A stretch of 58,977 bases of DNA from Planctomycetota bacterium (lineage in GTDB: Bacteria; Planctomycetota; UBA1135; GCA-002748355), in assembly GCA_011321845.1 (NCBI GenBank), contig DROQ01000131.1, positions 1 through 58,977 of the forward strand, written 5' to 3'. The notes beneath the pieces were generated by a model, which was not told the origin of the DNA, ran no database searches, and worked only from the letters and a program-made list of their open reading frames with translations. Positions 5,429 to 8,182 of the stretch are shown here, in pieces; the stretch's first letter is position 1; each line of letters opens with the position of its first letter. Both the position numbers and the translations under genes were made by a program.

Positions 5429-6571
5429 ATGGAGGAAGGGGAGAAAGAGGGAAGGAAGAGGAGCGACTTGGCAAGGCGAGAGATCGGTGAGGAGTGTTAC
5501 GAGGTGGGGCCGAGCGAGCACAGGCTCTATGCCCAGGACGCCCTCGAACTGTGGTTGCCGGAGATCCATAGACCGGCGCTCCGGCGTCTTCTCCGGGACG
5601 GCAAGGTCCTGCGCAACGGCATGCCCCTCGAGCCCCGGGAGCGGGTGAGGGAGGGAGATCTGCTCTCCTTCGTGGAGGAGGTGGACCTCGCCGAGCTGCC
5701 CCGGTTCCAGAAGAAGGACAAGAGGACCCCGCTGGACAAGCCGGAGGTCCTCTTCGAGGACGAGTCCTGCCTGGTCCTCCAAAAACCCAGCGGGCTAGGC
5801 TCTGTCCCCGACCGGATCGGCGACACGAGCGTGCACCAAAGGCTGGGCGCATGGTTCGGGGAGGAGGCCGACCTCCGCATCGTGCACCGCCTCGACAAGG
5901 GGACCTCGGGCGCTCTCATCCTCGCCAAGGGGAGGGAGGCGGCCAAGGCCTTCGACCTGGCCTTCCGGGAGAAGAGGATCCACAAGTCCTACCTGGCGCT
6001 TGTTCGTGGGATTCCGCACCTGGACGTTTTTTCCTGCAAGGAAAGGATCGGCCGCACGCTGCGGGGTGGCAAGGTTCGCACGGGACCCGGCAAGGGATCG
6101 CGGGAGGCGCACACCGATTTCCGCGTTCTGGACCGCTTCCGCGGCTTCGCCTTGCTCGAGGCTCGCCCGCGGACCGGGCGCATGCACCAGATCCGGGTCC
6201 ACCTCCTGCGCCTGGGGCTGCCTCTCGCGGTGGAACCGCTCTACACCAAGGCGAAGGGGCTCTACCTGCACGAGTTCAAGAAGGACTACCGCAAGCGGCC
6301 CAGCCACGAGGAGAAGCCCTTGATCGCGAGGCTCAGCCTCCACGCGGTCTACCTCCGCTTCGTTTCACCGGCTTCGGGGGAGGAAGTGCAGGTCATCGCC
6401 GAGCCTCCCAAGGACTTTCGGGTGGTGCTTGCCAAGCTGAACAAGTTCGCCTGCATCCCCGGGGAGAGGGCGGCCAAGCCTTCCTATTGTTTCGAGGACG
6501 AAGACGCGGCTTTTCGTCCGGAGGGCGGGACGGAGAGCGGGATGGAGGGCGGGACGGAGGACGGGGCATGA
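5429..6571 (+). CDS. RluA-family 23S rRNA/tRNA pseudouridine synthase
   Basis: A 380-residue RNA-modifying enzyme that isomerises uridine to pseudouridine. An S4-like RNA-binding region occupies about 35-85 (LPEIHRPALRRLLRDGKV). The catalytic RluA motif HRLDKGTSG places the nucleophilic aspartate at D156. RTGRMHQIRVHL (binding site region) and PLYTK follow. The substrate (RluA, RluC or RluD site) cannot be read from the sequence. The C-terminus ends in a low-complexity GGTESGMEGGTEDGA tail. The stop overlaps the truD start as ATGA, so the two pseudouridine synthases are translationally coupled. Confidence 0.9.
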   Translation: MEEGEKEGRKRSDLARREIGEECYEVGPSEHRLYAQDALELWLPEIHRPALRRLLRDGKVLRNGMPLEPRERVREGDLLSFVEEVDLAELPRFQKKDKRTPLDKPEVLFEDESCLVLQKPSGLGSVPDRIGDTSVHQRLGAWFGEEADLRIVHRLDKGTSGALILAKGREAAKAFDLAFREKRIHKSYLALVRGIPHLDVFSCKERIGRTLRGGKVRTGPGKGSREAHTDFRVLDRFRGFALLEARPRTGRMHQIRVHLLRLGLPLAVEPLYTKAKGLYLHEFKKDYRKRPSHEEKPLIARLSLHAVYLRFVSPASGEEVQVIAEPPKDFRVVLAKLNKFACIPGERAAKPSYCFEDEDAAFRPEGGTESGMEGGTEDGA

Positions 6572-7779
6572 AGGTCAAGCAGAGCGCGGGGGACTTCATC
6601 GTCTCCGAGATTCTCGAATTCCCCAAGGATCCTGGGGGCAGGTTCCACATCCACAAGCTCAAGAAGTCCAAGCTCTCGACCCATGAGGCCATTGACCGGA
6701 TCTGCCGGGTGACGGGTTTGGGTCGGGGAGCCATCGCCTTCGCAGGGCTCAAGGACCGGCAGGGGAGGACGGAGCAGTGGATCTCCATCGAAGGCAAGCG
6801 GGTGACGATCGACGAGGCCGACCTCAAGGTCTTCTGCGTGGGGCGCTCGGCCAGGAAGATCGACTCCACCATGTCCAAAGGCAACCGCTTCAAGGTTGTG
6901 GTCCGGGACCTCAAGGAGCGGGAGCTGGTCTCCTTCGATCGGAACCTCGCGGTCGTGCAGAAGTTCGGCCTGCCAAACTATTTCGACGATCAGCGCTTTC
7001 GCTGTCTGGAGCAGGGGCAGGGGTTCATCCTGTTGGACTTGCTGAGGGGGCGGACGGATGTCGCTCTGAGGCGCCTGCTTGCCAGCAAGACCCCGGCGGG
7101 GAAGCGGGAGACGGGGGACGCTAAGTTGCGCCGGCTGCTGGATCGCTTCTGGGGTCAGTGGGAGGACTGCGGGAGGATCGCGCGGGGGCCGATGTACCAG
7201 AAGGTGTTCCGGCATTTGCAGAAGTTTCCGGAGGATTACGAAGGGGCGCTGGCCGAGGTGCCGGTGCGGACCAAGACGATCCATCTCTTCGCTTTCCAGT
7301 CCTTTCTCTGGAACCGGATGGTGGGGAAGGGCTTGATGGAGATGCTGGGGCGGCGGGGGGTGAGCCTTGCCTCGGTGGCGGGTCCGCTGTTTTGCTGGGG
7401 GGGAATGGAGGCGGAGCGCTTCGAGGAGCTGCGGGGGTTGGAACTGCCGCTGATCGATGGAGGGACGAGGGTGCGGGAGCCGGTGTTCCAGAAGGCGCTG
7501 ACGGAGCTGTTGGCGGAGAAGAAACTGAGCCTTGGGGATCTGGACGCCCTGCGCTTGCCGGGGTTTTGTTTGAAGGAGGAGATGCGCAGGTTGGTGTTGA
7601 AGCCGGAGGATCTGGAGGTGGGGCCGGTGGAGAAGGATGATCGGAACCGGGAGGCGAAGAAGCGGACGATTTCCTTTCGGTTGCCACGGGGGGCGTACGC
7701 GACGCTGGTGGTGAAGAGGTTGTTTGCGAAGGATGCGGGGGGGCGTCCACCTTGGGGAAGGCGAAGGCGGAGGAGGTAG
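6568..7779 (+). CDS. truD: tRNA pseudouridine(13) synthase TruD
   Basis: A 403-residue synthase that modifies U13 of tRNA. The start ATG 6568 overlaps the preceding stop; the same frame is open much further upstream but only antisense-like. The diagnostic TruD motif FAGLKDRQGRTEQW is present, with the catalytic aspartate at D63. PNYFDDQRF (substrate-binding) and FQSFLWNRMV follow, and the insertion domain that distinguishes TruD lies in between. The protein ends in an Arg-rich tail just before the TAG. That stop codon lies inside GTAGAA, which looks like a degraded outer unit of the hairpin array starting at 7787. Confidence 0.93.
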   Translation: MKVKQSAGDFIVSEILEFPKDPGGRFHIHKLKKSKLSTHEAIDRICRVTGLGRGAIAFAGLKDRQGRTEQWISIEGKRVTIDEADLKVFCVGRSARKIDSTMSKGNRFKVVVRDLKERELVSFDRNLAVVQKFGLPNYFDDQRFRCLEQGQGFILLDLLRGRTDVALRRLLASKTPAGKRETGDAKLRRLLDRFWGQWEDCGRIARGPMYQKVFRHLQKFPEDYEGALAEVPVRTKTIHLFAFQSFLWNRMVGKGLMEMLGRRGVSLASVAGPLFCWGGMEAERFEELRGLELPLIDGGTRVREPVFQKALTELLAEKKLSLGDLDALRLPGFCLKEEMRRLVLKPEDLEVGPVEKDDRNREAKKRTISFRLPRGAYATLVVKRLFAKDAGGRPPWGRRRRRR

Positions 7780-7786
7780 AAGGTTC

Positions 7787-7825
7787 GTAGAAAACGTCGG
7801 TAGAAAACGTCGGTAGAAAACGTCG
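7787..7825 (+). repeat. Left half-units: GTAGAAAACGTCG x3
   Basis: Three exact tandem 13-base copies of GTAGAAAACGTCG at 7787, 7800 and 7813. They equal the 5' half of the full hairpin unit that follows, so they lack the complementary arm. A more diverged version (GTAGAAGGTTC, 7776-7786) precedes them and supplies the truD stop codon. Confidence 0.9.
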
Positions 7826-7901
7826 GTAGAAAACGTCTCCAGACGTTTTGCGTAGAAAACGTCTCCAGACGTTTTTTGTAGGAAACGCCTCTGGCGTTTC
7901 T
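7826..7901 (+). repeat. Left full hairpin units
   Basis: Two 26-base units start at 7826 and 7852, each GTAG followed by AAAACGTC, TCCA and GACGTTTT (stems 7830-7837/7842-7849 and 7856-7863/7868-7875). A third, variant unit at 7878-7901 has arms GAAACGCC and GGCGTTTC around a TCT loop. The arms change together, so pairing is preserved. Confidence 0.9.
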
Positions 7902-7952
7902 GGAAAACCCGCAGGGTTTTCCGGGGGCCAAAAGCCGAAGGCTTTTGGCCCC
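7902..7952. repeat. Two central hairpins of the array
   Basis: GGAAAACCC-GCA-GGGTTTTCC (7902-7922) is followed by a 13-bp stem at 7924-7936/7940-7952 with a GAA loop (core AAAAGCC-GAA-GGCTTTT). Neither has GTAG. They form the axis at which the two oppositely oriented arms meet, and they could act as a bidirectional terminator. Confidence 0.85.
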
Positions 7953-8134
7953 AAAAAACACCTGGAGGTGTTTTCTACCCAAAACACCTGGAGGTGTTTT
8001 CTACCCAAAACACCTGGAGGTGTTTTCTACCCAAAACACCTGGAGGTGTTTTCTACCCAAAACACCTGGAGGTGTTTTCTACTCAAAACACCTGGAGGTG
8101 TTTTCTACATGAAACGCCTGGAGGCGTTCCCTAC
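7953..8134 (-). repeat. Right full hairpin units, seven copies
   Basis: Seven contiguous 26-base units at 7953, 7979, 8005, 8031, 8057, 8083 and 8109. Read on the minus strand, the inner six are GTAG, AAAACACC, TCCA, GGTGTTTT plus two variable bases. The outermost has arms of the AACGCC/GGCGTT type. Relative to the left arm, C-G pairs have become A-T pairs on both sides of the stem. Confidence 0.92.
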
Positions 8135-8182
8135 GGCGTTCCCTACGGCGTTCCCTACGGCGTTCCCTGCGGCGTTTTCTAT
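8135..8182 (-). repeat. Right half-units, four 12-base copies
   Basis: Four tandem 12-base half-units at 8135, 8147, 8159 and 8171. On the minus strand they are GTAGGGAACGCC twice, GCAGGGAACGCC and ATAGAAAACGCC. The last one overlaps the 3' end of the lipoprotein gene, and its TAG is that gene's stop codon (8179-8181). Confidence 0.88.

Follow-up and report, generated by a model that had tools for sequence, protein, structure and literature searches.

The window analysed here is the 58,977 nt contig DROQ01000131.1 of a Planctomycetota bacterium (assembly GCA_011321845.1). At positions 7787-8181, by reading of the sequence, the gap between two convergent genes, truD and a small lipoprotein-like gene, is filled by an array of GTAG-led hairpin units in the form of repetitive extragenic palindromes (REPs; table 1). 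The original prediction described nine regular units plus a variant, placed head-to-head around a center without GTAG, and this layout was borne out by the reading. The ladders at the two outer ends were not singled out there. The left one begins 8 nt past the truD stop, and the half-units of both (13 nt in the left ladder, 12 nt in the right one) consist of GTAG and the 5′ stem arm only. As single-stranded DNA (ssDNA), the array has a computed fold of -127.7 kcal/mol, compared with -57.7 ± 4.5 for 100 dinucleotide shuffles (z = -15.4). An assignment to clustered regularly interspaced short palindromic repeats (CRISPR) was rejected, since the array is without unique spacers and its units are 1-2 nt apart.

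Table 1. Features of the array and of the two convergent genes that enclose it (positions in the window)
Feature	Position	Strand	Basis and remarks
truD (tRNA pseudouridine synthase D)	6568..7779	+	Pfam TruD 1.1e-51; stop TAG 7777-7779; 3′ end toward array
Left ladder, three 13-nt half-units GTAGAAAACGTCG	7787..7825	+	family D2, spacing 13
Left arm, two full 26-nt REP units GTAG-AAAACGTC-TCCA-GACGTTTT	7826..7877 (starts 7826, 7852)	+	sequence reading
Variant inner unit GTAG-GAAACGCC-TCT-GGCGTTTC	7878..7900	+	sequence reading
Central hairpin 1, GGAAAACCC-GCA-GGGTTTTCC, without GTAG	7902..7922	.	sequence reading
Central hairpin 2, GGGGCCAAAAGCC-GAA-GGCTTTTGGCCCC, without GTAG	7924..7952	.	sequence reading, center comparison; this center recurs in other mirrored arrays, in both orientations
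Right arm, six REP units GTAG-AAAACACC-TCCA-GGTGTTTT, 26-nt spacing	7955..8110	-	sequence reading
Outer cap unit GTAG-GGAACGCC-TCCA-GGCGTTTC	8111..8134	-	across the genome, the most frequent unit at the start of arms
Right ladder, four 12-nt half-units	8135..8181	-	family D3; last half-unit holds the TAG stop of the lipoprotein-like gene
Small lipoprotein-like gene, 94 aa	8179..8463	-	convergent with truD; stop CTA 8179-8181 inside right ladder; Pfam search without match

The host genome (G000) is a fragmented metagenome assembly of 4.16 Mb in 268 contigs. The unit pattern GTAG-N8-TCCA-N8′ has 333 exact matches in it (167 forward and 166 reverse) and the backwards control of this pattern has none; the pattern is not due to chance. 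With loci taken as stretches, and with a single mismatch in the stem and a small number of loop variants allowed, 337 units were parsed in 75 arrays on 62 contigs. All are sited between called genes, the calls coming from a simple and imperfect codon model made for this analysis. GTAG is present in 328 of the units and the TCCA loop in 316. Since 34 of the 75 arrays are located at most 350 nt from a contig end, arrays probably break the assembly and their count is a minimum. The dispersed intergenic copies that had been predicted are, in this way, found in at least 75 arrays across the host genome. None of the 153 other genomes among the 154 of the class that were searched has the family, and a two-unit DNA pattern had no match in GTDB r220, where the host or near records were possibly left out.

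The stems vary by changes on both of their sides. Among 25 distinct units, drawn from a set prefiltered for pairing, 97% of the base-pair cells are standard and two-sided changes occur at six of the eight pairs; no shuffle or slid register approaches the observed level. When the pairing filter is left out, 308 of 326 GTAG-N8-TCCA-N8 matches show one mismatch at most.

The polarity of the units is fixed. All arrays consist of plus units followed by minus units, with GTAG outward, or of a single arm, and tail-to-tail order is found in none of the 75. Arms of at least three units also follow an order of unit types. The outermost unit is usually GGAACGCC/GGCGTTTC (40 arms, the next commonest type having 8), and AAAACCCC, AAAACACC or AAAACGTC predominate among the internal units. 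Most single arms have GAAACGCC as their innermost unit; in mirrored arms this place is often taken by GAAAAGCC. A 53-nt double-hairpin center, found in both orientations, is common to several mirrored arrays. In the case of one array (L012, contig C21 of G000), the center is 107 nt long and formed by tandem GAAATGCCTTCTGGCGTTTT-type units having lost GTAG; the orthologous site in the sister species G001, presented below, bears an array of the G001 type.

Neighboring units are spaced by 26 nt in 193 of 239 pairs. Identical neighbors make up 52 of these pairs, when 27.7 are expected and 2000 shuffles gave a maximum of 44, and therefore units also duplicate locally. The alternative named in the original prediction, in which a short palindrome expands in tandem by local events only and without transposition, draws its support from this excess and from the regular spacing of 26 and 13 nt, and it holds as a contributor to array growth. 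As the sole cause, it is already refuted by the dispersed copies: at least 75 arrays have GTAG and the TCCA loop in common, and several of them the same 53-nt center. The transposase gene beside one array and the empty orthologous site, both treated below, also speak against local expansion, which has next to no likelihood as a full explanation.

The only close relative compared is the sister species G001 (JALSSW01, Planctomycetota bacterium isolate 356-308_metabat2_scaf2bin.073). It has its own dispersed REP family (106 BLAST matches). Units of the host were not found in G001, and the G001 family was not found in the six other genomes of the same taxonomic family that were searched. At the truD site of G001, the stop codons of truD and of the lipoprotein ortholog are 1 nt apart versus 399 nt in the host, the two TruD proteins being 82% identical; this is an empty orthologous site. 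Twelve sites, including that of truD, were matched by both flanks. Ten of them are shorter in G001 by 78-394 nt, one carries a G001-type array and one is longer. Another 20 sites were matched by one flanking gene; in G001 this gene is not followed by an array at 18 of them, and it is followed by a G001-type array at two.

The REPs of G001 (L121, L126, and L113) form spaced modules resembling bacterial interspersed mosaic elements (BIMEs), each composed of a GTGG/GTAG hairpin, a second hairpin (AAACGCT-TCT-AGCGTTT or GAAAGCCC-TCT-GGGCTTT) and a spacer. The modules are tandemly reiterated in L121. This architecture is quite unlike the close-packed arms of the host.

The original prediction also expected a Y1 transposase with flanking copies of the hairpin, that is, a REP-associated tyrosine transposase (RAYT). 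The Pfam scan of the host genome for Y1_Tnp (PF01797) gave no match, which is a false negative because the gene runs off the end of its contig with most of the Y1 domain missing. A Pfam Y1_Tnp match is present in the one genome of the same genus, G001. This RAYT (L081:95-772, 226 aa) matches NF047646 (REP-associated tyrosine transposase) at 1.7e-20, slightly below the curated cut-off, and E. coli TnpA-REP (PDB 4er8) at 6.9e-5. Downstream of it there is a mirrored array of GTGG/GTAG-led hairpins, and the upstream contig end shows half-unit-like repeats. When the host was searched with the G001 protein, a single match was obtained at C150:10501-10983, 50% identical over 161 aa; it scores 2.4e-10 against NF047646, below the curated cut-off, in a gene truncated by the contig end. 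The HVH motif exists in both proteins. The tyrosine (YILSNP) is found in G001, and the respective region of the host gene falls beyond the contig end. Upstream of the host RAYT, at a distance of 52 nt, lies the end of a host-family array, the downstream side being again beyond the contig end. The expected transposase is therefore in place beside an array of the host, and the full-length RAYT with its own flanking array in the sister species also backs the RAYT/REP interpretation.

The G001 RAYT adjoins the ortholog of one gene flanking the host array C114:22986. The ortholog of the other flanking gene stands next to an array at the end of another G001 contig. Therefore, the REPtron site of one species (RAYT with its own REPs) appears to be a RAYT-less array in the other. 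The RAYTs of three genomes of the same family (G003, G005, and G007) had no comparable hairpin array nearby. In five genomes of the same order (G008, G056, G083, G107, and G119), 11 to 33 Y1/RAYT-like matches were found per genome, far more than for a domesticated RAYT, of which one copy is expected.

An element of the IS110 family (L102:164-1860, contig C46 of G000; Pfam Transposase_20 3.4e-17) is located inside one REP array. Its insertion splits TTTTCT/AC, leaving CT at both junctions, in agreement with E. coli IS621, which has a CT core and the REP sequence ATCAGGCCTAC as its target (PMC11208160).

The spread of the arrays might be attributed to another enzyme, for example, this IS110 element found within an array, or to general recombination, with the RAYT being incidental. 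The IS110 element, though, is single-copy in the host genome and looks to have entered an array that was already in place, whereas a RAYT stands beside its own REP type in both sister species. Such an origin is very improbable.

It is highly likely that the array is a GTAG-tagged REP cluster, built as an expanded head-to-head REP dimer similar to REPINs (REP doublets forming hairpins) and BIMEs, and that it belongs to a species-specific family most probably mobilised by a RAYT of the HUH/Y1 type. Mobility and cleavage by the RAYT are inferred. The RAYT would bind the hairpins in ssDNA, take GTAG as its cleavage guide and seed new copies. Single units and 13-nt half-units would then multiply in place through slippage or unequal recombination, and copies would persist mainly just past stop codons, above all between convergent genes, where the harm should be least. 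The hairpins may also act on RNA, in 3′ end protection or transcription termination. Some points weigh against this interpretation. Neither movement nor cleavage nor excision was seen; the contig end truncates the host RAYT, with its catalytic tyrosine and 3′ flank out of view; the absence of an array in G001 is, alone, no proof of an insertion made by a transposase, although the other searched genomes of the class all lack the family as well; and part of the array growth is plainly local duplication.

The arrays show a clear preference for gene ends. The GTAG end is directed toward the 3′ end of a gene in 76 of 92 arms (p 1.6e-10), and convergent gaps account for 20 of 39 arrays versus 7 of 65 array-free gaps (p 1.4e-5). 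Of 74 genes that end at an arm, 39 have TAG as their stop codon, versus 22 of 80 other genes (p 0.0017). In 27 of 75 arms the TAG stop is directly followed by the stem, and in 25 GTAG is complete. Among the 18 array-less G001 orthologs, TAG is the stop in three, versus 14 in the host (paired changes 12 versus 1, p 0.003). It follows that the TAG more often comes with the array than predates it. An insertion aimed at pre-existing GTAG stop codons was tested on the same counts (TAG in 3/18 in G001 versus 14/18 in the host) and was not favored. Neither of the periods, 13 and 26 nt, is divisible by three, and the frame therefore shifts from one TAG to the next; with GTAG at either period, a TAG would be offered in every frame and a gene whose stop was overwritten would end at once. 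These frame-shifted TAGs presumably make arrays tolerable at gene ends.

The same preference could mean that the arrays, mobile only formerly, are now kept mainly as bidirectional terminators or as protectors of mRNA 3′ ends between convergent genes. The strong bias to convergent gaps and 3′ ends and the stable hairpins with A- and T-rich edges are consistent with such roles, which have been hypothesised for REPs (PMC3733652). On the contrary, the orthologs of the sister species are without arrays at most of the same sites, so arrays are not needed there, and the positional bias equally follows from purifying selection against insertions elsewhere. Retention for these functions is a rather unlikely main explanation.

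A stepwise growth of the arrays can be proposed, tentatively and as an unlikely course. RAYT cleavage at each GTAG would add half-units on the outer side, toward the stop codon, hairpin-templated copying would turn them into full palindromes and keep the diversifying stems paired, and gene ends would be rewritten to TAG. The ladders and ordered arms would be the record of this process.

The sister pair differs in its REPs (GTAG with TCCA loop versus GTGG/GTAG with TCCG loop), has RAYTs that are 50% identical and offers matched occupied and empty sites. It thus forms a natural test of the co-evolution of RAYT and repeat and of the settling of arrays at gene ends. In one RAYT, the change between GTAG and GTGG was reported to shift cleavage from CT to CC (PMC8266576), and therefore the pair yields a direct biochemical prediction.

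GTAG REPs are known from Planctomycetes (R. baltica; Di Nocera et al. 2013, PMC3733652), and that study also described clusters, stem subfamilies that differ by complementary changes, and REPs that often supply the TAG stop to genes. Their location at gene ends and their association with RAYTs are likewise published. The suggestion that several stem families in a planctomycete were new had, for the most part, been anticipated by that work. The host arrays share with GTAG REP families 1-24 of the same study the 5′ GTAG, the stem of 8-9 bp with complementary variants, the short loop, and the head-to-head, intergenic placement with convergent bias and a supplied TAG stop. They differ in the dominance of 26-nt tandem arms, which have up to eight units, in the ordered types and in the 13-nt ladders. 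In the related REP/RAYT literature, within limited coverage, no description was found of such long tandem arms, of an order among unit types or of ladders made of half-units. As in REPtrons (PMC2817692, PMC8266576), a RAYT with the HVH motif and, in G001, the YxxxNP motif adjoins its own REPs, and the sister species have different REP families along with their diverged RAYTs; the assembly holds just part of the host RAYT and shows the array on its upstream side only. REPINs and BIMEs (PMC3116915) are similar in the inverted REP pair with GTAG outward and in the dispersal through the genome, whereas in the host each arm has multiple units in place of one REP and several arrays carry the 53-nt double-hairpin center. 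The system is a RAYT/REP (REPtron/BIME) and, as such, of a kind already known, although its form is unusually long, ordered and mirrored; the family is new, and so are the empty sites matched across two sister species whose REP families differ.
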